Shown here: one piece after another, positions 13,985 through 25,762 of the stretch
Position numbering within the stretch: the first letter of the stretch is position 1
Layout of the letters: every line of letters starts with the position of its first letter
From: Thioalkalivibrio thiocyanodenitrificans ARhD 1
GTDB lineage: Bacteria; Pseudomonadota; Gammaproteobacteria; Ectothiorhodospirales; Ectothiorhodospiraceae
Length of the DNA: 64,000 nt
Direction: 5' to 3'
NCBI RefSeq assembly: GCF_000378965.1
Contig: NZ_KB900536.1
Span: forward strand, 445,583-509,582
The notes under the pieces: model-generated
Seen by the model: only the letters and a program-made list of their open reading frames with translations
Database searches by the model: none
Told to the model about the DNA's origin: nothing
Position numbers and translations under genes: made by a program

Positions 13985-14154
13985 GAATGGCTCCTGTTCA
14001 GGTGGGGGTCGGGGCCCTGCCGGATGAAGGGCGGCGCGCAGGCAGCCAGTGTAAGGGATGCTGCGAAGCGCCACGTCTGGTGCGGTTGATCCGGGTCAGA
14101 TTCAGGAGAGAGTGCGGACCCCTGGATCCGCCGCGGTACGGGCGTGGCGGCCGC

Positions 14155-14182
14155 TTTACTCCGGGCGGGATTGCTTTAGACT
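14155..14182 (+). promoter_or_regulatory. sigma70 promoter of tRNA-Leu
   Basis: TTTACT (14155-14160), a 16-nt spacer and TAGACT (14177-14182), placing the start just before the tRNA 5' end at 14194. Confidence 0.55.
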
Positions 14183-14193
14183 ATCCGTCCCCG

Positions 14194-14280
14194 GCCGGGA
14201 TGGCGGAACTGGTAGACGCGCCGGACTCAAAATCCGGTTCTGGCAACAGAGTGCGAGTTCGATTCTCGCTCCCGGCACCA
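14194..14280 (+). tRNA. tRNA-Leu (anticodon CAA)
   Basis: An 87-nt class II tRNA. The acceptor is GCCGGGA/TCCCGGC, the D-arm contains the leucine-type ACTGGTAGACGC, the anticodon stem CCGGA/TCCGG holds the loop CTCAAAA (anticodon CAA, codon TTG), a long variable arm is present, and the T-arm is GCGAGTTCGATTCTCGC. CCA is encoded. The 3' 59 nt are duplicated at 23264-23322, so this gene is the attachment site of the adjacent element and remains intact after integration. Confidence 0.96.
14222..14280 (+). repeat. attL: 59-bp tRNA-Leu 3' end direct repeat
   Basis: From the anticodon stem to the CCA end of tRNA-Leu. An identical 59-bp copy is at 23264-23322; similarity stops on both sides. This is the usual tRNA-gene target of a tyrosine recombinase. 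Confidence 0.93.
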
Positions 14281-14342
14281 CATATAAAACAAGAAGTTAC
14301 GGACTATCGGGCTAGGCAGGGAATCAGACTCACGGAAGGGCA

Positions 14343-14361
14343 TGTAACCCATATGTAACCC
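14343..14361 (+). promoter_or_regulatory. putative integrase arm-type site (left)
   Basis: TGTAACCCATATGTAACCC, itself two TGTAACCC units 11 bp apart, lies 63 bp inside attL. The same 19 bp are at 23139-23157 near attR. A further GGGTTACA is at 14388-14395. Such repeats near both ends fit arm-type binding sites of the integrase. Confidence 0.55.
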
Positions 14362-14397
14362 AGTTTGAACCTGCAATAGCCTGCATCGGGTTACACT

Positions 14398-14661
14398 TCA
14401 CCCCGGGCCGCCTTCGCCCCCAATGCCGACGCCCACAGGGAAGTCAGCGCACGCGTTGGCGGTCCACCCTCTCCAGGCTGCAATGGCCGCAGCGTGTGCC
14501 GTGAGTTCGCCACGGATCACGGATTCGGCAAGCTGCGGGTTGTCGCGCTTGAGGCGTGAGATTAGGTATTGCTGGGAGTCACCATGCTTCAACCTGATAT
14601 TATCAGCTTGCCTCCTAGCCCCACCATGTCCTTTCGCTGGCTCCACCTGCTCCAGCAGCAT
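14398..14661 (-). CDS. small protein at the left end of the element, unknown function
   Basis: An 87-residue protein. The middle reads YLISRLKRDNPQLAESVIRG and then LTAHAAAIAAW, a pattern seen at the C-terminus of many small proteins of mobile elements; function not known. AAGGAG lies 10 nt before the ATG at 14661; a GTG 33 nt upstream is an alternative start. It lies beyond the terminator of the capsid operon, so it must have its own promoter or depend on readthrough. Confidence 0.45.
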   Translation of the reverse strand: MLLEQVEPAKGHGGARRQADNIRLKHGDSQQYLISRLKRDNPQLAESVIRGELTAHAAAIAAWRGWTANACADFPVGVGIGGEGGPG

Positions 14662-14698
14662 GGCCCGGCACTCCTTGTCCTGCCCGCCTTGCACCCAT

Positions 14699-14732
14699 AA
14701 AAAAGCCGCCCGGCATCACGCAAGGCGGCTTT
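14699..14732 (-). terminator. intrinsic terminator of the protease-capsid operon
   Basis: On the minus strand a 9-bp stem AAAGCCGCC/GGCGGCTTT with a 13-nt loop is followed by further T residues (TTTTTT in all), 44 nt after the capsid gene stop. Confidence 0.88.
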
Positions 14733-14775
14733 ACCCTTCGGGCAGGCCGGGTCAGCCCACAGGGTTTACTCGCCC

Positions 14776-15888
14776 TTAGAAGCTACCATGCACAATCGCA
14801 GTCGGAAGGATCACGGTCACCGTGCTGCGCATCTCCGCCCGAATCGTCACCAGGTTCCGCTGGACGTTGGTTTCGTCCTGCTCGAACATCTCCACGGTGA
14901 CATTCTGCCGATCCCACAGAATGGCCGCCCGGTTGAAGTCGGCCACCAAGAACTGACCTTGCGGCATGGAGTTCGACGGCACCACGGGAAGCCCCCACAG
15001 CATCGCAGCAGAGGCCGCAGGGCCGCCCATAAGGTAGCGGTCCTCGTTATCCTTCAGGCGCGTGATTGCTCGCCAGTCAGCGACGTTCAGCACGATGCCG
15101 GAGGCGGAATAATCCGCCACCTCCACCTGCTCGATTGCCCGTGACAGGGTATCCAGGTGGGTATCGCCGGTGGCGGGTCCGGTGAAGGCGGTTGCGTTCT
15201 GGATCAGGCCGGACATATTCGACCCGGTGCCGTTGCCGGTAAGCACCTGCACTTCCTCGGCCAGCCCGACCCCGTAACGCATCCGCCGATCCAGGTAGAG
15301 GCCCAAGGCGGCCTGATCGCTCAATGCCTGCTTGGATACCTTGATGAAGTGCGCGATGGTGCGCACGGGGGCCTCGATCAGTTCAAAGGTCAGATCCGTT
15401 TCGGCCTTCTCGGCACCCTCGGACGCCTGGGGCGCGGCATTGTTGGAGAACGCCAGTTCCCGCGTGACCTCCACCAGGTTGGAATCCGCCTGCATGACCG
15501 GCAGCAGGTCGCGGATACGCAAGGACCGCTCGGCAGGCATGACAATACCGGGCATCCGGGTCGCGGGACTGAGCGTTGACCCGGGCTGTGCAGGGGAACC
15601 TTCATCGCCGGTAAGCGTGTTCTTCGACAGCAGGTCCACGTCCAAGCTCATTTTCACATGCTTGGCGTTGCCCGAGGCCAGGGCCTTGAACTGCTCGGAC
15701 TCCACCACGGCGCGTCCGAAGTCATGCACGGTCCCGGAGTTCGCGGGACGCATCCCGCCAGCGCCTTTTTGCTCGACCTCGTGAAGCCGATTCTGCAACT
15801 CGTGGACGGCCTCGCCCATGGTTTTGATCTTGCCGCCGAACTGCTCAACGGCGGCCTTGTTTTCTTCGATAATCTGCTTGAGTTCCAT
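14776..15888 (-). CDS. HK97-fold major capsid protein
   Basis: A 370-residue phage major capsid protein (HK97 gp5 family). An N-terminal helical, Glu/Gln-rich scaffold-like region (~1-60) precedes the capsid fold. Family segments include RIRDLLPVMQADSNLVEVTRE, HFIKVSKQALSDQAAL, the E-loop to spine region RRMRYGVGLAEEVQVLTGNG, LWGLPVVPSNSMP and the C-terminal QDETNVQRNLVTIRAE. It is the last gene after the protease (13 bp apart) and is followed by a strong terminator. It should form the icosahedral shell; no scaffold or decoration gene is seen. Confidence 0.93.
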   Translation of the reverse strand: MELKQIIEENKAAVEQFGGKIKTMGEAVHELQNRLHEVEQKGAGGMRPANSGTVHDFGRAVVESEQFKALASGNAKHVKMSLDVDLLSKNTLTGDEGSPAQPGSTLSPATRMPGIVMPAERSLRIRDLLPVMQADSNLVEVTRELAFSNNAAPQASEGAEKAETDLTFELIEAPVRTIAHFIKVSKQALSDQAALGLYLDRRMRYGVGLAEEVQVLTGNGTGSNMSGLIQNATAFTGPATGDTHLDTLSRAIEQVEVADYSASGIVLNVADWRAITRLKDNEDRYLMGGPAASAAMLWGLPVVPSNSMPQGQFLVADFNRAAILWDRQNVTVEMFEQDETNVQRNLVTIRAEMRSTVTVILPTAIVHGSF

Positions 15889-15901
15889 CGTTCGTACTCC
15901 G

Positions 15902-16531
15902 TCAGGAAGCGAATAGGTTGTTCAGTTCGCGCAGTGCCTCGGCCAGTTCTTCGGCCTCGGCCTGCTCATCGGTTTTGAGAAGTTCGCGGTAGCCGCCGGA
16001 CATGAGCCGTTTGGCCTGTCTGGCGGACAAGCCGACTTCGCGCAAGGCGGATTCCAGGGTGCGCGGGGAAGTGATATCCACGGACAGATTCTTGACCCCG
16101 GTCAGACGGGCACCAGCAGCCGCAGGGACACCCACAAAGCTAATCTCGAATAGATCCAGCTTCTTCAGTATCCGGGCACCATGCGCATAGTCCGCGCCAC
16201 CCTCGGCAAGCCTGAAGCCGATGGACAGGCCAACGGCGTCTGCCTTCGATAGCTCGTAAGCTTCACGTCCGGCGTCTGTCTTTAGCGCGAGTTGACCGCG
16301 TACCAGCAGCCCGGCGTCCGTCTCGCGCACCTCGGACCACTTGCCCGCAACTTTCGATTGATCGTGGTGAAGCAGCATCGCCGGGAGGCGCTTTTTTAGG
16401 GTGTCGCTAAACGCACCAGGCATCACCACGTCGCCCTGGGCATCCTGCTCGCCATAGGGCGATGCAATGCCTTCCACGATGCCTTGCGGCGTGGTCGCGG
16501 CCTTGAGTTCAAACAGGAGATTTTCAGTCAT
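15902..16531 (-). CDS. HK97-family prohead maturation protease
   Basis: A 209-residue serine protease (U35/HK97 family) that cleaves the scaffold domain of the capsid protein during head maturation. Family motifs are GIASPYGEQDAQGDVVMPGAF, the His in AMLLHHDQS, the Ser in AVGLSIGF, and LFEISFVGVPA. The C-terminal ~60 residues are charged and probably bind the shell. It is the first gene of a two-gene operon with the capsid gene, behind the promoter at 16649-16676 with a ~115-nt leader. The ATG at 16531 follows a GGAGAGG. Confidence 0.93.
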   Translation of the reverse strand: MTENLLFELKAATTPQGIVEGIASPYGEQDAQGDVVMPGAFSDTLKKRLPAMLLHHDQSKVAGKWSEVRETDAGLLVRGQLALKTDAGREAYELSKADAVGLSIGFRLAEGGADYAHGARILKKLDLFEISFVGVPAAAGARLTGVKNLSVDITSPRTLESALREVGLSARQAKRLMSGGYRELLKTDEQAEAEELAEALRELNNLFAS

Positions 16532-16648
16532 GGCGACCTCTCCACAGTTAAACGTCCGGCGTTGCCGGTCCTGTGCAGTGCGTCGCGCACTCGCTCCGGT
16601 GGGTCTGGCCTCGCACGTCGCGCACGGGCCAGCGGGAGCAATACTGTA

Positions 16649-16676
16649 AGTTTATACACTGCCCGGGCATTGTCAA
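16649..16676 (-). promoter_or_regulatory. strong sigma70-type promoter for protease-capsid operon
   Basis: On the minus strand: a perfect TTGACA (16676-16671), a 16-nt spacer and TAAACT (16654-16649). The spacer contains the palindrome TGCCCGGGCA (16660-16669), a possible operator. The TGA stop of the upstream 84-aa gene is inside the -35 hexamer. Confidence 0.68.
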
Positions 16677-16927
16677 TGCTCCTTGGGTGCCAGCAGGTCA
16701 TGAATGCGCTCATCGGCAACGGTCAGCAGCCGGGCAGCGGCCTGGGGTTCACCCGACTCGATATGCTCAACGGCACGGCGGAAGGTGAGTTCCGCCATCT
16801 GCAAACTGAGCGCCTGGATATGTATTGTTTTCTCCAGCAGCGTCATGGGGCCTTGCCAGGACTCCGGCAGTGTCTCGCGTGGCGGGGACTCGGGAATCAA
16901 CTCGTTTACGTCCGCGTAATCACTCAT
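16673..16927 (-). CDS. 84-aa element protein, unknown function
   Basis: Starts MSDYADVNELIPESPP at the ATG 16927, overlapping the 55-aa gene upstream by 8 bp. The rest is predicted helical (LLEKTIHIQALSLQMAELTF). No recognised domain. It is in the position where the large terminase and portal genes stand in HK97-type head modules. Its stop lies within the promoter of the protease gene. Confidence 0.6.
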   Translation of the reverse strand: MSDYADVNELIPESPPRETLPESWQGPMTLLEKTIHIQALSLQMAELTFRRAVEHIESGEPQAAARLLTVADERIHDLLAPKEH

Positions 16928-17087
16928 CGGCGGCACCCTCCAGGGCAGCGCGGATATCCCGGGCCAGGGTCTTGAGTGAGTCCGTAAGGTCGGGCACGGA
17001 CTGCGCGAAGTTCTCGGCCTTCACCTCCAGCGCGGTCAAGGCGGAACCCTCGGCAATGGCGTTCCAATCGGGTGTCTTGTCACTCAT
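16920..17087 (-). CDS. 55-aa element protein, unknown function
   Basis: A small acidic helical protein beginning MSDKTPDWNAIAEGSALT. Its start overlaps the 108-aa gene by 8 bp and its stop overlaps the 84-aa gene, so the three genes form one translation-coupled string. GGAGAG is 9 nt before the ATG at 17087; another ATG at 17102 is in frame. No recognised domain. Confidence 0.55.
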   Translation of the reverse strand: MSDKTPDWNAIAEGSALTALEVKAENFAQSVPDLTDSLKTLARDIRAALEGAADE

Positions 17088-17406
17088 GGTCAAGCTCTCC
17101 ATCGGTCAGCAGCCCGTGACGGGCCAGATACTCACGCTCGGCCTCAGCCTCGGGGCGCGGCTCCGGGGCATCAAACTTCCACCAGGCGTAGGGCCTTGTC
17201 CCGGGGTTCGCCTTGATCCACTCGGGCAGCAACACGTCCCGGTGACGTTGCCAGTCCAGGCGCATCCGGTCGTCGTCGCAAACCGTCTCCGGCAGGTAGG
17301 TGTGATAGCCAAGTCCCGCCAGCAGGCACGGGCCGTTGAGCAATTCGGACCGGCACCAATCGTCCAGGGCACCGCCCCGCCTCTGTCGTGTTCTGTTCGT
17401 CGGCAT
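17080..17406 (-). CDS. 108-aa element protein, unknown function
   Basis: Begins at the ATG 17406, one base after the terminase-like gene stop. The middle has RPYAWWKFDAPEPR followed by EAEREYLARHGLLTDGE, a tryptophan-rich segment I recall from other prophage and satellite genes without a named function. The conserved look and tight spacing next to the small terminase suggest a packaging or head-assembly role, which is inference only. Confidence 0.65.
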   Translation of the reverse strand: MPTNRTRQRRGGALDDWCRSELLNGPCLLAGLGYHTYLPETVCDDDRMRLDWQRHRDVLLPEWIKANPGTRPYAWWKFDAPEPRPEAEAEREYLARHGLLTDGELDHE

Positions 17407-17407
17407 A

Positions 17408-17719
17408 TCAGGCCACCATCGGCGGGCGGCCCACCGCCTGCAAAGGCTCGACGTCGAAATTCATCTGGCGCATCGTGGCCGCCAGCTGCTTTTCGGCATC
17501 GCGGATCGTCGCCAGCAACGGATGCGCCTTGCCATCGACCACCAGACCCTCCCGGGCCACAATCTCGCGGGCTTCACGGGCCAACTGGTGCGCCCGGCAA
17601 AGCTGGTGCAGCAACACAAGCCCAGGCGCGTCCTGAATATCGAAATCGTCACGCAGCCGCACGAATATGTCCGCCTCGGGTGCGGCCAGTGTTTCAGGTG
17701 GTGCAAATCTGTTCTTCAT
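17408..17719 (-). CDS. P27-like phage terminase small subunit
   Basis: A 103-residue protein. The segment LLHQLCRAHQLAREAREIVAREGLVVDGKAHPL followed by IRDAEKQLAATMRQM matches the pattern of P27-family small terminases (helical core, then a VxGKAHP turn, then a helix). This subunit would recognise the element's pac or cos site. A strong ribosome site AAGGAGAAGAAGG precedes the ATG. No large terminase follows; the next gene is the 108-aa protein. The N-terminus is shorter than in full-length family members. Confidence 0.6.
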   Translation of the reverse strand: MKNRFAPPETLAAPEADIFVRLRDDFDIQDAPGLVLLHQLCRAHQLAREAREIVAREGLVVDGKAHPLLATIRDAEKQLAATMRQMNFDVEPLQAVGRPPMVA

Positions 17720-17829
17720 GCCTTCTTCTCCTTACCCGCGCACGCGGGAATCCTTAGTTGCGATAATTCGTGACTTCCCCTTGCGGTCCTTCAGGCGTTG
17801 CCATTCCACTTTCGGACACCCCCTCCCCC

Positions 17830-18042
17830 TCACTTCTCGCCCGTCCAAGCTCGCGTCCCGTCCGGCTCCGGGCTGTCTGCCAGGTCGGCAGCCGTGACGC
17901 CTCTCGCCTGCAGTGCCGCCTTTAGCTTCGCCAGTGCCCGGCGCTCGATGAGTCCCACCAAGGCACCCGACACGCCTAGCTCGGCGCCCACCTCGTCGTG
18001 GGTCATCAAGGCCAGGTTGTCGGGCACACGCTTACGCGGCAC
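17830..18042 (-). CDS. stand-alone sigma-70 region 4-like HTH protein
   Basis: A 70-residue protein starting at a GTG (18042) after GGTGGGG. Residues ~12-45, LMTHDEVGAELGVSGALVGL followed by IERRALAKLKAAL, have the spacing and signature of sigma70 region 4.2 (EVG..LGV....V..IE.RAL.KL). It lacks regions 1-3, so it cannot act as a full sigma factor. A role as activator or anti-sigma-like regulator of the downstream packaging genes is inferred from position. Confidence 0.7.
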   Translation of the reverse strand: MPRKRVPDNLALMTHDEVGAELGVSGALVGLIERRALAKLKAALQARGVTAADLADSPEPDGTRAWTGEK

Positions 18043-18102
18043 GTCAGCCCCACCACCCGGCAGCCCATAGAGTCCCGATCAAGGCGGCGTGCACGTCCAC
18101 GG

Positions 18103-18297
18103 TCAGCGCTCCATCATCGGCATGGTGCAAATCATCTCCATTAGGTCGCGGGCATGGGCCATTGCCGGGTCGTCCATGCTCATGCGGTCGCGCAGCCGGT
18201 CCGCCTCCAGATAAAGCTCTATACGAAAACGGTTGTACGCGTTGCGCTCGGCCTGCGAGAAAGCCTTGTTTGCAGTGCTCCAGAAGGTCGTTTTCAT
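18103..18297 (-). CDS. 64-aa element protein, unknown function
   Basis: Starts MKTTFWSTANKAFSQAERNA at an ATG preceded by GAGGGGCTGAC; charged and helical, with five Met residues near the C-terminus. It begins one base after the stop of the 115-aa gene. Frames extending further upstream overlap that gene and are not needed. No recognised domain. Confidence 0.55.
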   Translation of the reverse strand: MKTTFWSTANKAFSQAERNAYNRFRIELYLEADRLRDRMSMDDPAMAHARDLMEMICTMPMMER

Positions 18298-18298
18298 G

Positions 18299-18646
18299 TC
18301 AGCCCCTCGCTCTGCGTCTGGCGGCTTGTCTCTTGGCGCATTCCTCCGGCGCATTGGCAAGCTCCAGGCTGTCCCAGGTTCTGATGTGCGTATCCTCCAC
18401 CCTGCCGTCGGGCCGCAGCAGGAACGAGTCCGTGTCATCTACCCGGCCTTCCGTTGTCACCGGGTAGACCGCCTGGAAGTAGGGGACTTCGTGTCTAGAC
18501 GGATCTTCGTACTCAAGCGGAACGAGCTCCCAGGCAAGCACAGGCTCGGGGTCAAACAGCTCGCCGGTTTCAGTATCCACCCACAACCGGAACCAGCCGG
18601 GTTGTGCGGGGATAATCGTCGGGGTTGGCATATCGTGGTCGCTCAT
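18299..18646 (-). CDS. 115-aa element protein, unknown function
   Basis: Starts at the ATG 18646 with GGAGG 8 nt upstream. It contains GWFRLWVDTETGELFDPEPV and an aromatic-rich middle, then a basic C-terminus (AKRQAARRRARG) suitable for nucleic acid binding. It is the first gene after the iteron region. No recognised domain. Confidence 0.6.
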   Translation of the reverse strand: MSDHDMPTPTIIPAQPGWFRLWVDTETGELFDPEPVLAWELVPLEYEDPSRHEVPYFQAVYPVTTEGRVDDTDSFLLRPDGRVEDTHIRTWDSLELANAPEECAKRQAARRRARG

Positions 18647-18693
18647 TCGGTGCCTCCAGTGTCTAATTGCCAATCTGCCGAAACTGATTCTCT

Positions 18694-18821
18694 GCACAAA
18701 TGGACTGCACAAATGCCGCACAAATGCCGCTCGAATGCACAAATGAAGTGCGCACACACACACCCCTATAGGGGGGGGTGTGTGCACTTGTGCACTTGTG
18801 CAAGCACCCATTCACTTGTGC
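18694..18821. other. iteron cluster, putative replication origin of the element
   Basis: Direct repeats GCACAAATG occur at 18694, 18707, 18718 and 18737, with a degenerate GCTCGAATG at 18729. On the other side of a palindrome (CCCCTATAGGGG, 18763-18774, within a longer CA/TG-rich inverted stretch) are three inverted copies, CACTTGTGC, ending at 18793, 18801 and 18821. The cluster lies directly after the helicase gene, where satellite and plasmid replicons often place their origin. Confidence 0.6.
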
Positions 18822-19972
18822 ACCTCCACCAATCCTTTCTTTGGAGAACGGTTTGGGTACTGACCTACAACATCCGTTTTGAGTCGTCCGGCCTTCAACA
18901 TCTCGCGCATGGCGGCGGCAAACTGCCTTTTGTCGATGCCGTCGAGCAATCCGTATTCTTTGGCCACCTTGGGCGCGTAGGACGGGCTTGCCGTGGATGC
19001 TGTGGCGTCTGTGCCCATCTCCGTGAGTTTGCGAAGGGCGCGGAGCACCACGTCTTGCGCGTACTGGGGGCCAAACCGTTGCTTTGGTGCGGCAGACTCG
19101 GGAATGAGCACGCCGTCCCGGTACTCGAAGCGGCGCCAGTCCTTGCCGGAGTAATTGGCCTTCCTTCGGGTCAAGTACCGGGTGTCGTCCGTATCGCTTC
19201 CCTCATCGGGATCCCCATCGGGCAGGGTTGGCGATAGAAACAGGCGGGAGCGGACAGAGCCTTCCCAAGCGGTGGTTCCCGAGTATTCGGACCCTTGGCC
19301 CTTGGCAGGGTGCGCGAGCAGCATCACGGCGGCGCCTTGGGCGGCATTGTCGAGCCATGAGACAAACTGAGTGACCTGGTGGCGGTCGTTCTCGTTGCCT
19401 CCGTAGACTCGGGCCGTAGAGTCAAGAATGATTACCTCGGGCTTGGTGTCCGATACCTTCTCTCGAAGCTCCTTCAGTGCGCTTGTAGGGGCCAGGTGCC
19501 CATTTATTTGCTCGGCAAGGGTGATGTCAGCGCCGTTACATGGATGGAGCATGAAGCGGCCCTCAAGCTCTCCCATGTCAAGATCCATCCAGCGGCATAT
19601 ATCCTCCTGCCGCCTGTGCAACTCGTCGGCATCATCTTCACCGGCCCACATGAGCACCTTCCGGGATTCCGGGACCTCGTCGAAGTAATCCCGGCCCATT
19701 GCAAGGCATGTTCCGAGTGTCTGCGCCAACAGTGTCTTACCCAGCCCACCCAAACCCGCCAACAGGGTTGTGTGTCCCATCGGCACCCATCCCCTGGTGG
19801 CCCAAACCCGCTCAGGCGCTTTCACGTCCTTTAGGCGTGCCCAGTCGAGCGGGGCAGGGAAGCCCGAATCCTTGATATCGGCGCTTTTCAGAATCTCCGG
19901 CGACTCGCGGTAATCGTTAATGTCCTTTTCTCCTGCGATCCCTTCGGGGAGCAATACTCTTCGGGTCGTCAT
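18812..19972 (-). CDS. AAA-family replicative helicase (RepA/KaiC-like)
   Basis: A 386-residue ATPase. Residues 1-25 (RRVLLPEGIAGEKDINDY) look like the C-terminal end of a Toprim domain. Then come Walker A AGLGGLGKTLLAQ (~75), LMWAGEDDADELHRR, Walker B EVIILDSTARVYGG (~175) and AVMLLAHPAKGQGSEYSGTTAWEGSVRS, the pattern of hexameric RepA-like helicases. The C-terminus resembles a winged helix. The ATG overlaps the primase stop (ATGA). Probably unwinds the element's origin, which lies at its 3' end. Confidence 0.88.
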   Translation of the reverse strand: MTTRRVLLPEGIAGEKDINDYRESPEILKSADIKDSGFPAPLDWARLKDVKAPERVWATRGWVPMGHTTLLAGLGGLGKTLLAQTLGTCLAMGRDYFDEVPESRKVLMWAGEDDADELHRRQEDICRWMDLDMGELEGRFMLHPCNGADITLAEQINGHLAPTSALKELREKVSDTKPEVIILDSTARVYGGNENDRHQVTQFVSWLDNAAQGAAVMLLAHPAKGQGSEYSGTTAWEGSVRSRLFLSPTLPDGDPDEGSDTDDTRYLTRRKANYSGKDWRRFEYRDGVLIPESAAPKQRFGPQYAQDVVLRALRKLTEMGTDATASTASPSYAPKVAKEYGLLDGIDKRQFAAAMREMLKAGRLKTDVVGQYPNRSPKKGLVEVHK

Positions 19973-20799
19973 AGCCTGCCCCCCTGGTCGGCGTCATAGA
20001 TGATCAGCACCTCTCGCGGCTGGAATCGCTCATCTATGGCGCGGGCTATATCCTCCATGCGTCCGACTCCAAAGGCGCATATTCCGACCGCGTTTCCGTG
20101 GTGCCAGTGCCACACAAACGACACGGCATCGGCCCACCCCTCGACCACGGCCCAGGGAATGGACTTGTCCAGGTCATTGCCCAGCAGCAGGGCACCCCCG
20201 GACAGTTGCCCGAAGGTCTGTTTCGCACCTTCGGGGTTGATTACCTGCACACCCTGTACCCGGCCTGTAGCTCCCTCACGAATCGGCACCACCAGGCAAT
20301 CAGCATCGCGGCCAATCACCCGGCCCGATGCCTTCACCCGTCCGGCTCCGGCTGCCCAGGTGATGCCCTTTGCGATTGCGTAGGGATGTGATGCCACGGC
20401 TTCGCTGGAACGATCAGCGGCCATCCAGAGGCGCAAGGCATAGGCAAGGGTCGGGGACTCCTGCGGGGACTCCTGCGGCCTCTCCGGCGCTCTCGGTTTG
20501 GTGGTGGGCGTGTCGGTTGGTCGCCAGCCGTGTGTGCGGGCCATGTGAATCAGCGTCCCGATGGTCACGGACCTTCCGTTAGGGGCATCGCTAAAGCTCC
20601 GCCAGGTTGCACGGGCGGCACGCGGGTCGTAGCGGTCGGACGTTCGGCTCCACTGGTCCCACACGTCCCATGCAGCGCCCCCGAATTCATGATGCAGGGC
20701 CATGCCCATCTGCACCCACACGTCGCGGTCGTCGCTCGGAATTGCCGAAAGCATGGCTTGTGCATCGGCCAAGGTTGTTTCACGCAGGCGGGCGGTCAT
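19969..20799 (-). CDS. PriCT-2/Toprim primase-type protein, Toprim domain cut short
   Basis: A 276-residue protein. Residues ~14-70 (LSAIPSDDRDVWVQMGMALH ... WDQWSRTSDRYD) form a PriCT-2 domain. Residues ~140-276 form a zinc-less Toprim domain with DCLVVPIREG, WAVVEGWADAVSFVW (the catalytic Glu) and VLIIYDADQGG (the DxD motif), where the frame ends. The remainder of the Toprim fold appears in the next gene, in the -1 frame, right after a run of six G. It starts at the ATG 20799, overlapping the 81-aa gene. Confidence 0.82.
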   Translation of the reverse strand: MTARLRETTLADAQAMLSAIPSDDRDVWVQMGMALHHEFGGAAWDVWDQWSRTSDRYDPRAARATWRSFSDAPNGRSVTIGTLIHMARTHGWRPTDTPTTKPRAPERPQESPQESPTLAYALRLWMAADRSSEAVASHPYAIAKGITWAAGAGRVKASGRVIGRDADCLVVPIREGATGRVQGVQVINPEGAKQTFGQLSGGALLLGNDLDKSIPWAVVEGWADAVSFVWHWHHGNAVGICAFGVGRMEDIARAIDERFQPREVLIIYDADQGGRL

Positions 20800-21041
20800 C
20801 GCACCACCTCGAGCCGGTGCAGACCGACACGCAAGCGGGCACCGTTGCCCAGCCGCAGGTGGGCGGCGTCACGCTCGACGGCCAGGACCTCCAGGTGTTC
20901 GCCGGGGAGGAGATTGCAGGTGACGATGCAGCCGGGCTTGAGGACGGCGGGCGGGGTGGTATCATTCAGGGGCGCGTACAGATCCCCAAGCGCATCGACG
21001 TATCCCGCCCCCGGTTGCCGCCGGGGGTTTTTCGTTTTCAT
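20796..21041 (-). CDS. 81-aa element protein, unknown function
   Basis: Starts MKTKNPRRQPGAGYVDALGD at 21041, sharing one base with the stop of the HTH gene, and ends by a 4-bp overlap with the primase gene. The C-terminal half (CIVTCNLLPGEHLEVLAVER) is predicted beta-rich. No recognised domain. A predicted antisense RNA covers its first third. Confidence 0.5.
   Translation of the reverse strand: MKTKNPRRQPGAGYVDALGDLYAPLNDTTPPAVLKPGCIVTCNLLPGEHLEVLAVERDAAHLRLGNGARLRVGLHRLEVVR
20972..21032 (+). ncRNA. predicted ~60-nt antisense RNA
   Basis: On the plus strand a promoter-like TTGAGG (20938-20943), 16-nt spacer and TATCAT (20960-20965) is followed about 40 nt later by a perfect 7-bp hairpin CCCCCGG/CCGGGGG (21008-21027) and TTTTT. 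The product would be complementary to the 5' part of the 81-aa gene, just ahead of the primase. It is the only plus-strand transcription unit suggested within the element. Confidence 0.42.
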
Positions 21042-21238
21042 CACGCGGCCCCGGCGCTGGTGGACGTCCGAGTGCGGGACTCCAGCCAGGAATCCAGGTC
21101 GGCGGCGCGGTATCGCACGCATCGTCCGAGTTTCACGAAGCGGGGGCCAAAGCCTCGAACCCGCCAGGCTTCCAGCGTGGTCCGTTTCAGGCCAAGGCGC
21201 TCGGCGGCTTCCTGCGTGGTGAGGGGAAGTTCTGCCAT
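21041..21238 (-). CDS. AlpA-like helix-turn-helix regulator / excisionase
   Basis: A 65-residue winged-helix protein of the MerR/AlpA superfamily: LTTQEAAERLGLKRTTLEAW is the HTH, then FVKLGRCVRYRAADLDSWLE the wing and helix. Such proteins act as excisionases or activators in P4-like and PICI satellites. The ATG at 21238 has GAGGA 7 nt upstream; in-frame ATGs at 21262 and beyond are less well placed. First gene of the replication operon, preceded by hairpins at 21266-21286 and 21330-21354. Confidence 0.85.
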   Translation of the reverse strand: MAELPLTTQEAAERLGLKRTTLEAWRVRGFGPRFVKLGRCVRYRAADLDSWLESRTRTSTSAGAA

Positions 21239-21265
21239 CGCTGCATCCTCATGTGTGGACATGGC

Positions 21266-21354
21266 GCCCGCCAAAATTCGGCGGGCTTGGATGCAATTGT
21301 GGCAAAAAAAGCCAGAAAAACAACGACTTAATAGACAAAGGGCCTTTGTCTATT
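21266..21354. promoter_or_regulatory. regulatory gap between integrase operon and HTH gene
   Basis: Contains a 12-bp-arm palindrome (AATAGACAAAGG, one G, CCTTTGTCTATT; 21330-21354) that overlaps the stop of the 175-aa gene, and a hairpin GCCCGCC/GGCGGGC (21266-21286). Between them the minus strand has a candidate TTGTTT-16-CACAAT promoter. The first palindrome could be an operator or terminator. Confidence 0.45.
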
Positions 21355-21877
21355 TAATGGGCGGGCGACCTCTTACTGGCGGGGGAACGCTGAACTCTGA
21401 CCTCGGAAGGCTCTTGTAAAGCTCGGCAAGGCGGCGTTCCACAGTCTTGCGGCTGGGCGCGGTGTCGGCGTGTCTTTCCTTGGCAAGGTTCAGCGCGTCG
21501 GAAACTGTTTCATGGAAGGTGCGGCCCGCCTGGTTGCTCATGTAGAACGACTCCGCCAGGGTCATCACCACGGCGTCGGGCAGGCGTCGGGCCTCTCCGG
21601 TCTTCGCGTGTTCGAGCACCCGGGCGCGGCAATCCAGTCCATCCGCGTACGCCTTCATCAGCGGGTCGATGACATCCATCACGGTTTCGATGGTGTGCGG
21701 CTCCAGCTCCTTGGCTGCCAGTTCGTTACGGACCAGGAGTCGCATGGCCTCTGCCTGCATCTTGTTGGCATCGGCCACGGACAGATTCAGCAGCCACTCC
21801 AACTTCCTTCGGGCCTCTGCCTGTGCGTCCTCATGGCCGTCCGTGATTAGCCGCATGTAGGCGTTAACGATGTTCAT
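21350..21877 (-). CDS. 175-aa element protein co-transcribed with integrase
   Basis: Starts at the ATG 21877, overlapping the integrase stop (ATGA). Mostly helical and charged (HEDAQAEARRKLEWLLNLSV, then VSDALNLAKERHADTAPSRK) with a proline- and arginine-rich end. No recognised domain. Its position suggests a role in integration, excision or immunity, but nothing in the sequence proves this. Confidence 0.65.
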   Translation of the reverse strand: MNIVNAYMRLITDGHEDAQAEARRKLEWLLNLSVADANKMQAEAMRLLVRNELAAKELEPHTIETVMDVIDPLMKAYADGLDCRARVLEHAKTGEARRLPDAVVMTLAESFYMSNQAGRTFHETVSDALNLAKERHADTAPSRKTVERRLAELYKSLPRSEFSVPPPVRGRPPIK

Positions 21878-23115
21878 GCTTTTCGCTCCAGCGTCACCAC
21901 GTTGCCGGCCTCGAAGACGCGCTTCTGTTCCTCGAAGAACTGCGCGATCCGGTCGGCCTCGGGCTTGAGGTCGCGCACATCACTCAGGTCCGCGTAGTGG
22001 GCGAGGGTGATGTCCTGGTCCTGCTTGTGGTTCATCAGGGCCTTGGTGCGCCACAACTCGACACCTACCTTGGCGGCCACGGTCCGGAATGTTCTTCGCA
22101 GATCATGGGCGGTCACGTCCACCCCGGTCTTTTCCGCCAGGATCATCAACTGGCCCCGGCAGTCCTTCAAATGCCCTTTACCGGAGCGGGCGGGGAACAC
22201 GAACGGGGTCTTGTTCCTGCGGGCCTCGATGATCTCCATGGCCAGGTCCGAAAGCGGGAGGCGAACGTCGGTGCGGTTCTTGGTGTCGGTGAGTCGAAGG
22301 CTTGCGTCCTCGATCTGATCCCAGCAGATAGAACGGGCCTCCCCGAGCCTCAATCCGGTAACGGCCAGCAGGGCCACCAGATCGGCAGCGGAGCGCGATG
22401 CGGGGGTCAGGGCGGGATCGGCCCTCATGGCCTGCACAGCACTCCACCATTCCCCGAGGCGGTCCAATGGCACCATGCTTTTCTTCGGGGCCACAGCTCG
22501 CAGTACGTTGGCGTCACGCAGGACCTCCACGGGGTTGTCCTGGATGATCCGGGTTCCCTCGGGGGTGCGGTAGGTGGCTCCGGCGTAATTCAGCAGGGCG
22601 GACAGCACCCGCATGGACTGATTGGCCTGTGCCACGGAGGTCTTGCACTTGGCTTTGTAGCGGGTGAGCACCATGTCCCGCGTGATCTCGGCCACGGGCT
22701 TGTCCTTCCACTCGGAAAAGGTGCCATCCAGGTGGTAGCGCACATCCTTTTTGGTGCGTTCCTTGAGCGGTTTTCCGGCCCGGGTGCGACGGCTATCCAG
22801 ATATGCATCGGTCACGTCCGCCAGGGTCACGGAGAGCGCCTTCTTGCGGCGCTTCTCGGCCACGGGGTTCTTGCCCTCGGCCATGTCTCCGAGTTTGGCC
22901 TTGGCCCTCTTGCGGGCCTGGTCGGGGGTGAGCACGCCATGCTTGCCCAAGGTATGGCGCACGGTCTTGCCGTGGATCTTGGCCTGCACAATGTAGGACT
23001 TGGCACCCTTGGCGGTGACGCGCAGGCCGAAACCTTGCAGATCATCGTCCCATAGCAGAACATACCCGCTTTGCGGTGCCTGGACGGACTTGATGGTGGT
23101 GGCGTTTAGCTTCAT
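21874..23115 (-). CDS. tyrosine recombinase integrase
   Basis: A 413-residue phage-type integrase. N-terminal arm-binding DUF4102-like region (YVLLWDDDLQGFGLRVTAKG), core-binding domain (~100-200), and catalytic domain with the first Arg in AVTGLRLGEARSICWDQI, the Lys region TDTKNRTDVRLPL, HDLRRTFRTVA, and the tyrosine near ITLAHYADLS. It should recombine the tRNA-Leu 3' end. The start is ATG 23115; an in-frame ATG at 23148 is possible but falls within a putative arm site. Confidence 0.94.
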   Translation of the reverse strand: MKLNATTIKSVQAPQSGYVLLWDDDLQGFGLRVTAKGAKSYIVQAKIHGKTVRHTLGKHGVLTPDQARKRAKAKLGDMAEGKNPVAEKRRKKALSVTLADVTDAYLDSRRTRAGKPLKERTKKDVRYHLDGTFSEWKDKPVAEITRDMVLTRYKAKCKTSVAQANQSMRVLSALLNYAGATYRTPEGTRIIQDNPVEVLRDANVLRAVAPKKSMVPLDRLGEWWSAVQAMRADPALTPASRSAADLVALLAVTGLRLGEARSICWDQIEDASLRLTDTKNRTDVRLPLSDLAMEIIEARRNKTPFVFPARSGKGHLKDCRGQLMILAEKTGVDVTAHDLRRTFRTVAAKVGVELWRTKALMNHKQDQDITLAHYADLSDVRDLKPEADRIAQFFEEQKRVFEAGNVVTLERKA

Positions 23116-23138
23116 GGTCAGAATCCGGTGCGTTCCCG

Positions 23139-23157
23139 TGTAACCCATATGTAACCC
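23139..23157 (+). promoter_or_regulatory. putative integrase arm-type site (right)
   Basis: Same 19 bp as at 14343-14361, in the same orientation, 106 bp inside attR. A GGGTTACA at 23230-23237 adds a further half site. The site covers the likely integrase leader, so binding could also autoregulate the gene. Confidence 0.55.
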
Positions 23158-23192
23158 GATTTGAGCGGATTACATCCAAAAGCATCGGATTT

Positions 23193-23221
23193 AGTATGGT
23201 ACTAAGTGCCTGATATATCAA
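23193..23221 (-). promoter_or_regulatory. candidate integrase promoter
   Basis: Minus strand TTGATA (23221-23216), 17-nt spacer, CATACT (23198-23193). The -35 is within a TGATATATCA palindrome (23211-23220) that could bind a repressor. Confidence 0.45.
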
Positions 23222-23263
23222 TAACCATAGGGTTACATAAGACTCCATCATATGGGTACTATG

Positions 23264-23322
23264 CGGACTCAAAATCCGGTTCTGGCAACAGAGTGCGAGT
23301 TCGATTCTCGCTCCCGGCACCA
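23264..23322 (+). repeat. attR: 59-bp tRNA-Leu 3' end copy
   Basis: Exact copy of 14222-14280, running from the anticodon stem to CCA. It lacks the 5' part of the tRNA and is not a functional gene. After it the chromosome resumes. Confidence 0.93.
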
Positions 23323-23491
23323 ATAAAATCAATATCTTGAGATAAGTTCCTCTGCTTGTTTCTCGCCATGGAAGGCTCGGTGCACGTGCAACAGGGGGCT
23401 GTCGCGACGATTCCCGGAGCGGGCGTGGCCCGGGGACACGTCGAACTGAAACCATCTGGGCCGTTTCAACCGTCGCGCTTGCCTTGCGATG

Positions 23492-25762
23492 TCAGCGTTG
23501 TGCGCACGCGACGCGGTTTCGCCCTCGGTCCTTTGCCCGGTAAAGCGCCTTGTCGACCCGGTTCAGCAGCGAATCCGGATCGTCGTCAGGCGCAAGCTCC
23601 GATACGCCGAAACTGGCCGTGACGGTGCCCACGCGGTCGAACCGGAAGTCCTCGATGGTCCGGCGCACCTTCTCCGCCACCTTCGCCGCCGCGGCCAGAT
23701 CGGACTGGGGCAGCAGCACCATGAACTCCTCCCCGCCCCAACGCGCTGCGACGTCGATATTCCGGATGTTCGCGGTGACCAGTCTGACCACGTCCTTCAA
23801 CACCTCGTCGCCCACTCCATGGCCGAAGGTGTCGTTCACCTTCTTGAAGCGGTCAAGGTCATACATGATCAGCGACAGGGGGGTGCCGTACCTTCGTGCG
23901 CGATCGATCTCGTGCTCCAGTATGCGGGTGAGTTCCCTGCGGTTGGCGATGCCGGTCAGCTCATCGGTGGTGGCGAGGACACGGATCTTCTCCTCGGCCT
24001 CCTTGCGCTCCGTGATGTCCATGACGACGCTCTGGAAGTGATGGGCCTGACCGTCCGTGTCCCGCTCCACCACGGTGCGCGCGTACACCCAGCGTACCCG
24101 GCCGTCGGCGCAGACGATGCGATACTCCTGCTCGAACGAATCCGCATCGGCCTCATAATGGGTCTTGACCTCGGCGGAGACGCGCTCAAGATCGTCCGGA
24201 TGGATCATCGCGTCATACGTGGTCATCCCTTCCTGCAGATCCTCGGCCGAATAGCCGAACTGCCGGACGTTGTCCGACACCAGATCCAGCGGCCAGCCCG
24301 GCTCCACCCGCCAGCGAAACAACACGGTATTGCTGTTCTCGATGATGATCCTGTCCTTTTCGAGCCTGTCCTGGTATCGCCTGCGCTCGGTGATGTCCCG
24401 GAAGAACCACACGCGTCCGTAGTGTTCCCCATCCTGCCCATGAACCGGTGCGCTGTACCGATCGAAGGTCCGGCCGTCCCGCAGGCTGATCTCGTCCGAG
24501 GCCGTCCAGTTCGGGTCCTTGTACAGCCCTTCGACCCGTTCAAGGAACGCCGCGGGGTCAACGAGATTGTCCAGGACCGTCTGCAGGACCTGATGATCCT
24601 CGCCGGTTGCCAGCACGGGCTCGGGAATGCCCCACATGGCCACGAACCGGCGGTTGTAACTGAGGATCCGCCGGTCATTGTCGACGACGAGGATGCCGTC
24701 CCGGGACGCCTCGGTCTGTGCTTGGAGCAGCGCCTTCTGGAAAGCGATCTGCTCCGCGTTACGCACCTGCTCGGTCAGGTCAACCAGGGCGCCCACGAAC
24801 CGGGTGGGGACCCCGGCGGCATTCCGGATGATGTGGGCCCGGTCGAGCAGATGAACGTAGGCGCCGTCAGCTCGACGGAAGCGGTACTCGACGGCCCATG
24901 AGCGATCACCGCCGTGCACCGCCCCGCGCACCTTGTCGACTGCCTGGTCGCGGTCGTCGGGATGAACGAGATCCTTCCACCAGTGGAACCTCGCACCGAT
25001 CTGATCGGGGTCATAGCCGAAGGCGACCTTCAGGTTATCGTTCCACCAGAGTTCACCCGTGGTGAGGTCGTAATCCCAGATCCCGTCCCGGGTGGCCTGG
25101 CTGATCAGGTCGAAGCGTTCCCGCAACAGGAGCAACGCTTCCTCGGCGTGCTTGCGGGCCGTGATGTCGGTCTCGATGGAAACGAACCTTGTGACGATAC
25201 CGGATTCATCGTGGATTGCGTGCACCTCGATTGCCGAGCAGTGGCGTCGGCCTGATTTGCTGTAGGTGATGAGTTCGCTGTTGAAATCCTGACCCCTTCG
25301 AAGTTGCTCGAACATGAAGGCGACCGTGGCCGGGTCCGTGTCCGGACCGTGCAGCAACTGGTCGGGCCGTTTCCCGAGCGCCTCATCCATTGTGTACCCG
25401 GTGATCCGGGTGAAGGCGTCATTGACCCATTCGATGCGGGCCTGCGGATCGGCGATGAGCACGCTGCTTGAGATCCGGGCGGGGACCAGGGCGAGTTTCT
25501 CCAGCCCGTTGTTCCGGTCCATGGCTCTTCGACGCGCGACAAAGACCGCGGATCCCGCGAACAGGCTGAACAGGAATGCAATGCCCAGGGTGATCGACCA
25601 TGTTTCGCGGAGGGAGGCGATCCGTGCCTGATCACCCGCGTAGAGGATCAGGCCGGGGATCAGTGCGGCGAGAAACACCACGGTGCCCGAGATCAGGGCG
25701 TCACGCACCGGGCGAATGTGCAACCGGCGCTTGCTCGTGCAAGTGGCGGTGGATTCGTTCAT
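23492..25762 (-). CDS. membrane-anchored multi-PAS diguanylate cyclase
   Basis: A 756-residue signalling protein. Two N-terminal transmembrane helices (~24-44, ~52-72) are followed by four PAS domains (about 95-210, 220-335, 345-455, 465-580; typical starts VLIADPQARIEWVNDAF and ILVVDNDRRILSYNRRF), then a GGDEF domain (~590-750). The active site is intact (RWGGEEF), and RNID five residues upstream is an RxxD inhibitory I-site, so it should make c-di-GMP with product feedback. No EAL domain. The ATG at 25762 begins just before the membrane segment. Confidence 0.92.
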   Translation of the reverse strand: MNESTATCTSKRRLHIRPVRDALISGTVVFLAALIPGLILYAGDQARIASLRETWSITLGIAFLFSLFAGSAVFVARRRAMDRNNGLEKLALVPARISSSVLIADPQARIEWVNDAFTRITGYTMDEALGKRPDQLLHGPDTDPATVAFMFEQLRRGQDFNSELITYSKSGRRHCSAIEVHAIHDESGIVTRFVSIETDITARKHAEEALLLLRERFDLISQATRDGIWDYDLTTGELWWNDNLKVAFGYDPDQIGARFHWWKDLVHPDDRDQAVDKVRGAVHGGDRSWAVEYRFRRADGAYVHLLDRAHIIRNAAGVPTRFVGALVDLTEQVRNAEQIAFQKALLQAQTEASRDGILVVDNDRRILSYNRRFVAMWGIPEPVLATGEDHQVLQTVLDNLVDPAAFLERVEGLYKDPNWTASDEISLRDGRTFDRYSAPVHGQDGEHYGRVWFFRDITERRRYQDRLEKDRIIIENSNTVLFRWRVEPGWPLDLVSDNVRQFGYSAEDLQEGMTTYDAMIHPDDLERVSAEVKTHYEADADSFEQEYRIVCADGRVRWVYARTVVERDTDGQAHHFQSVVMDITERKEAEEKIRVLATTDELTGIANRRELTRILEHEIDRARRYGTPLSLIMYDLDRFKKVNDTFGHGVGDEVLKDVVRLVTANIRNIDVAARWGGEEFMVLLPQSDLAAAAKVAEKVRRTIEDFRFDRVGTVTASFGVSELAPDDDPDSLLNRVDKALYRAKDRGRNRVACAQR

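Follow-up and report, generated by a model that had tools for sequence, protein, structure and literature searches.

In PICIs the origin is described as adjoining the 3′ end of the replication gene and as consisting of two sets of iterons placed around an AT-rich region (PMC6092414). According to the sections of PMC7581432 that deal with these proteins, SaPI Rep reads its iterons through a C-terminal domain, SaPI Reps are related to DUF927 and Primase_Cterm/D5 proteins, and the C-terminal domain of the SCCmec helicase Cch2 binds direct repeats downstream of its own gene. The oriV of RSF1010 (IncQ) is presented in PMC4234260 as using RepC for the iterons, RepA as helicase, a separate primase, RepB′, and hairpins (ssi) as priming sites; in the same account, the origin of pRN1 is a stem-loop located 3′ of a replication protein that has a winged helix among its domains. 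Other replication proteins are described for PLE satellites (PMC7145576) and for PICMI satellites, in which a gene overlapping the integrase gene is also reported (PMC10803314). In the open-access full-text literature, no paper was found on iteron-based origins of phage helicases that combine a RepA fold with a fused winged helix.

The 64-kb stretch of DNA that was analysed (the window) contains an element of roughly 9 kb, 14222-23322, bounded by 59-bp att repeats. Its features are listed below in window coordinates.

14222-14280, no strand: att repeat, the 3′ part of tRNA-Leu (59-bp exact repeat)
14776-15888, minus strand: HK97-type major capsid protein (Pfam Phage_capsid, E 3.6e-50)
15902-16531, minus strand: prohead protease (Pfam Peptidase_S78, E 4.8e-22)
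17408-17719, minus strand: small terminase subunit, TerS (Pfam Terminase_4, E 4.4e-6)
18812-19972, minus strand: replicative helicase of RSF1010-RepA fold, AAA_25 (Pfam PF13481, E 2.2e-38; 1olo match)
18812-19117, minus strand: C-terminal winged-helix domain of the helicase (wing NRSPKKGL, S376), proposed iteron reader (AlphaFold model, covariation)
19969-20799, minus strand: primase gene, overlapping the helicase start (Pfam PriCT_2, E 4e-22)
21041-21274, minus strand: AlpA-like HTH_17 regulator (Pfam HTH_17, E 3.4e-13)
21874-23148, minus strand: tyrosine integrase (Pfam Arm-DNA-bind_3 and Phage_integrase)
23264-23322, no strand: att repeat, the other end of the element (59-bp exact repeat)

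Read along the minus strand, the order is integrase, AlpA-like regulator, primase, helicase, array, TerS, prohead protease and capsid. The Toprim match of the primase is weak (Pfam E 0.065, below the cut-off), and we take the HTH_17 regulator at 21041-21274 to be AlpA-like. Because Pfam recognised no large terminase among the scanned ORFs of the element, and a search of the host genome with PF03354 and phrog_2 gave zero matches, the element looks like a phage satellite that would depend on a helper phage. Near both of its ends stands TGTAACCCATATGTAACCC (window 14343-14361 and 23139-23157), possibly an arm-type site of the integrase. The start of a gene of unknown function (window 21350-21877) falls in the final 4 nt of the integrase gene, an overlap like that reported in PICMI (PMC10803314).

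Our proposal is that the repeat cluster behind the helicase gene is very probably the replication origin of this ~9-kb phage-satellite-like element, with helicase-bound iterons flanking a hairpin at which the DNA would be opened and then primed by the primase. The first-pass annotation had described four repeats and a degenerate one on one side of a palindrome, three inverted copies on the other, and the whole right behind the helicase gene. All of these were recovered at exact coordinates, with two refinements: the outermost inverted copy sits inside the 3′ end of the gene, and the palindrome between the iteron sets is the core of a larger hairpin with 17-nt arms.

18694-18702, plus strand: iteron 1, GCACAAATG, exact match
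18707-18715, plus strand: iteron 2, GCACAAATG, exact match
18718-18726, plus strand: iteron 3, GCACAAATG, exact match
18729-18737, plus strand: degenerate iteron, GCTCGAATG, by sequence
18737-18745, plus strand: iteron 4, GCACAAATG, exact match
18752-18785, no strand: central hairpin, 17-nt arms, 88% complementary
18763-18774, no strand: core palindrome of the hairpin, CCCCTATAGGGG
18785-18793, minus strand: inverted iteron, GCACAAGTG, exact match
18793-18801, minus strand: inverted iteron, GCACAAGTG, exact match
18813-18821, minus strand: inverted iteron within the 3′ end of the helicase gene, GCACAAGTG, exact match

In the direction of the helicase gene the unit reads 5′-TGCACAARTG-3′ and points inward from both sides, and the last codons of the helicase with its stop (V-H-K-stop) form part of the outermost inverted iteron. 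The motif GCACAARTG has 7 matches in the window, 4 on the plus and 3 on the minus strand, all inside the 128 nt from 18694 to 18821. Dinucleotide shuffles gave a mean of 1.07 matches per window and reached 7 in 0 of 100 cases; second-order Markov simulations (n=200) gave a mean of 0.49 and never two copies within 135 nt. In the 3.75-Mb host genome, this site alone has same-strand pairs of the motif with a gap of at most 30 nt. The repeat cluster is real and far beyond chance.

The gap between the iteron sets of the window folds as DNA with an energy z of -4.0 against mononucleotide shuffles, and it is not AT-rich (AT 0.38 versus 0.38 for the element). The first-pass annotation called such a geometry typical of Rep-binding origins; the arrangement is of the SaPI/PICI kind, except that the AT-rich region between the iteron sets is absent. 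For this reason the proposed origin was filed as a PICI variant.

Inverted, operator-like units at a gene boundary together with an intergenic hairpin could also be read as transcriptional control: a repressor or activator would use the units as operators, and the hairpin would terminate the replication operon. A terminator scan lists 7 terminator-like sites in 18000-21500 versus 3.2 in shuffles, and one with 5 pairs lies at 18761-18748, beside the palindrome. The central palindrome itself is nevertheless absent from the output of the terminator scan, and a scan gave no promoter-like site near the array. Moreover, this helicase is followed in relatives by arrays with as many as 14 units, in other relatives the array lies inside its coding end, and this reading leaves the covariation with the helicase wing, presented below, unexplained. 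We hold it to be very unlikely.

If the cluster is an origin, the helicase is the candidate for its reader. The core of the protein superimposes on RSF1010 RepA (1olo) with Z 24.6 and an rmsd of 2.7 over 228 residues. The full model has a mean pLDDT of 78, while the last 101 residues, modelled alone with AlphaFold, reach a pLDDT of 91 and form three helices and a two-stranded wing. Structure matches of this tail are generic winged helices, the best being to a winged helix-DNA complex (Z 8.6, rmsd 2.8, 71 residues); the match was regarded as generic because Foldseek returned zero matches for the winged helix at E 0.001. A PDB sequence search gave nothing at E 0.01.

Relatives of the helicase were found in several collections. 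At E 1e-20 it was detected in 3 of the order's 47 genomes, namely in the host and, with 34% identity, in two more; at E 1e-60 only the host was found among 369 genomes of the class; a profile search at E 1e-40 gave 8 of 398 genomes of the phylum, again with the host. Six distant matches came from the phage collection and two from the plasmid collection. The ten nearest relatives (39-52% identity) stem from viral contigs and metagenome-assembled genomes. Repeats lie behind the helicase in all ten, although in L006 and L007 they are clear on one side only. The repeat unit is shared within each locus and differs between loci, examples being TGCACAAATG, TGCGGGAATG (L022), TGCTCTCGCTACC (L049) and TGCTACCACC (L059).

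Under an automatic rule, the order forward units, hairpin, inverted units was found in 25 of 36 near relatives including the window. Among these 25 segregated loci L033 and L055 are probably spurious, whereas in L022 and L031 the rule failed on a pattern that is visible by eye. The array usually starts at or close to the helicase end; in L032 a segregated 5+3 array stands at a distance of about 670 nt from the gene, in L041 there is only an unsegregated repeat 3.6 kb away, and L047 and L055 show no array within the locus DNA examined. Folding was evaluated on the gap alone in 21 segregated loci (the 25 minus L033, L039, L054 and L055), a scan for single hairpins having often chosen other hairpins. 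The gap folds as a hairpin with z < -2 against mononucleotide shuffles in 17 of the 21. It is not AT-rich, with a mean AT of 0.38 versus 0.40 for the loci and a value at or below that of the locus in 15 of 21.

The central hairpin thus recurs across loci despite changed sequence, as would be expected if the inverted arrays and the hairpin folded as an RNA element in the transcript. We consider this reading extremely unlikely, since in many of the more distant relatives the arrays are entirely or almost entirely direct, the sole Rfam match at gathering score in 14000-23500 is the tRNA, and the covariation described below couples a protein residue with a repeat base. One group of more distant relatives carries the array within an extended 3′ coding end of the helicase. 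In L012, L016, L061, L062, L073 and L133 the array stands mostly ahead of the stop codon, so that the protein apparently ends in a repetitive tail translated from it. The spacers between iterons of L013 and L018 hold a second recurring sequence like AAGTCATTGAAATCATTGCGGG, which hints at a higher-order repeat.

The association was quantified with an array score, defined as the largest number of copies of one 9-mer, with at most one mismatch and on either strand, within 600 nt, counted from roughly where the winged helix ends. Loci were selected by hand with one locus kept per contig; L020 (weak, partial) and nine near-identical-looking copies (L081, L082, L159, L162, L164, L166, L173, L176 and L179) were removed. 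A script then reduced 126 rows to 117 by taking out 3 duplicates, 5 rows whose flanks were short and 1 that extended past the end of its contig. Winged-helix tails were classed by tail length, in place of an iterated HMM of helicase tails, which accepted 114 of 117 rows and so failed to tell winged-helix tails from others. A classification by anchor search was discarded, the anchor being missed in 70 of 117 rows. An initial array scan starting 60 nt before the stop (54/117 versus 15/585 controls at a score of at least 6) was replaced because it missed arrays inside extended reading frames.

The first-pass annotation had considered that absence of the repeats from otherwise syntenic elements would speak against an origin. 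Among relatives of the helicase whose tail extends at least 100 aa beyond the motor, 77 of 111 (window included) reached a score of at least 6. So did 44 of 585 control windows taken within those loci, and 1 of the 6 relatives whose tail is not long enough to form a winged helix. The unit itself differs. At a score of at least 8, the figures were 41/111, 8/585 and 0/6, respectively; 34 of the 111 long-tailed helicases stayed below 6. These 111 rows are not independent, some being near-identical, for example L121 and L124. Among 38 helicases fetched later, 37 have a long tail and 30 of these an array, or 28 of 35 when L223 and L229, whose repeats may be coding or low-complexity, are set aside. 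The comparison was run on helicase relatives rather than on satellites of the same gene content because, among the genomes of the order, the capsid occurs in the host alone (one match in 47 genomes at E 1e-60).

The repeat unit varies together with the helicase. One wing position correlates with the fourth base of the unit, namely the residue directly after a conserved arginine (R375, followed here by S376): histidine or lysine there goes with G at base 4, and other residues go with another base. Under automatic unit calls in 49 loci, H or K was accompanied by G in 12 of 13 cases and other residues by another base in 34 of 36. After correction by eye of L019, L023 and L033, in which the program had picked another repeat, the counts became 13/13 and 36/36. 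On a tree built from the motor domain only, without the tail (246 columns), the wing residue differs in 8 independent pairs, and the base follows in 8 of 8 with the corrected calls (sign test p 0.0078); with automatic calls the average is 6.3 of 8, and no pair runs the other way (median p 0.031).

The rule was set post hoc, after the first set of loci had been seen. On loci fetched afterwards it held in 9 of 9, with units called by script and no correction; L261 gave no clear unit, base 4 being A in 6 instances and T in 5. The test excluded 7 of 56 rows, whose unit score was 4: L025 and L039 agree with the rule, and L032, L041, L047, L055 and L091 have no clear unit near the gene. Wings of the KR type had been filtered out because of L170; with L267, L274 and L307, met later, they oppose the rule in 3 of 4 (L170, L267 and L307), and L274 agrees.

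The host genome contains a second satellite-like element, L340 (C1:792000-811000, the element at about L340:6815-15737), which lies in tRNA-Asn with a 49-bp att repeat. Over 3,936 alignment columns it is 93.7% identical in DNA to window 14402-18312, a region covering TerS, protease and capsid, and the capsid protein is identical in the two elements. Its integrase is different, and so is its replication protein of 554 aa, which was called from its position and a weak VapE-like match below the cut-off. The helicase has no counterpart in L340, being single-copy in the host genome, and GCACAARTG is absent from both strands of the 19 kb of L340. Repeats of the TTGCGGGT type lie inside the 3′ end of L340's own replication gene, with a repeat score of 6, a score also reached by 44/585 control windows. 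Beyond the att repeat of L340, two pieces resembling window 14401-14456 (L340:15875-15932 and L340:16824-16865) may be relics of earlier insertions, and a HicA-like toxin gene (L340:16479-16727, Pfam E 5.8e-8) stands just outside the element.

Because TerS to capsid is kept in L340 and the unit is absent, the array is linked to the replication gene, not to the genes for packaging. This bears directly on the possibility that the repeats are TerS-binding, cosB- or pac-like sites. In its favour, the TerS gene (17408-17719) is about 1 kb from the array, and of 8 relatives examined, 5 (L008, L010, L015, L036 and L042) have a large-terminase match behind theirs. Against it, packaging genes conserved at 93.7% DNA identity are retained in L340 with no copy of the unit at all, the unit covaries with the helicase wing, and the distance from the helicase stop to the large-terminase gene varies from 0.7 to 3 kb while the array usually stays at or near the helicase end. 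A packaging site is therefore unlikely in our judgement.

Since the array follows the helicase gene, its unit covaries with the wing, and replication gene and repeats are both exchanged in the sibling element, the array is tied to the helicase, which is the probable binder of the iterons through its C-terminal winged helix. An origin of the Rep-binding type, as originally proposed for this cluster, gains support from an array that travels with the replication gene and from a unit that covaries with the C-terminal wing. As judged from sequence and models, the RSF1010-RepA-type (SF4) helicase would bind the iterons through the winged helix and could load on either side of the central C-rich hairpin, where it may open the DNA. 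The neighbouring PriCT/Toprim primase would then prime on the exposed strand or on the hairpin, and the element would probably replicate after excision.

DnaB and other SF4 helicases normally depend on a loader or a separate initiator. A motor fused to its own origin reader would, if true, provide a simple one-protein initiation system across phages and satellites. We lean slightly towards the broader view that the locus represents a widespread, undescribed class of phage and satellite origins, built on a self-loading SF4 RepA-type helicase with a winged-helix reader, in which one wing residue sets base 4 of the unit and helicase and array are swapped together, giving compatible replicons in one cell. 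The covariation between wing and base offers a testable specificity code and a route to origins in unannotated phage genomes. The two siblings in one genome suggest that satellites may avoid replication interference by exchanging replication gene and origin.

Compared with described systems, the closest likeness is to SaPI/PICI origins. The origin lies directly 3′ of the replication gene, and the array here overlaps the 3′ end of the helicase gene; there are two iteron sets, here 4 exact and 1 degenerate forward units and 3 inverted ones; the C-terminal domain of the helicase serves as iteron reader in SaPI and is proposed to do so here; and the elements carry int, an AlpA-type regulator and sometimes terS. 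On the other hand, the motor here has the RSF1010 RepA (SF4) fold and not that of the DUF927 or Primase_Cterm/D5 proteins named for SaPI (PMC7581432), and a C-rich hairpin stands where PICIs are described with an AT-rich region (PMC6092414). With RSF1010 the element shares a helicase of RepA fold (the 1olo match concerns the fold only), a separate primase, iterons and a hairpin. It differs in that RSF1010 leaves the reading of the iterons to a separate RepC (PMC4234260), whereas the present helicase has a fused winged helix of its own, and in the position of the hairpin, here between two iteron sets; among the 16 ORFs of the element and its flanks, Pfam found no member of the RepC family, though a diverged protein could escape such a search. 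pRN1 is similar in its stem-loop origin 3′ of a replication protein that bears a winged helix, but that protein is of the prim/pol-SF3 type and its origin is described as a stem-loop, with no iteron set named in the account (PMC4234260). SCCmec Cch2 offers a further parallel, since its C-terminal domain binds repeats downstream of its own gene; it is a Primase_Cterm/D5-type helicase, with three short direct repeats, in another kind of element. Overall, the best reading is that of a SaPI/PICI-like origin whose helicase is of the RSF1010-RepA type and carries a fused winged helix, and in which a C-rich hairpin replaces the AT-rich spacer. By this comparison, the present system would join a PICI-like placement and logic with an RSF1010-type motor, a fused reader and a hairpin between the iteron sets.
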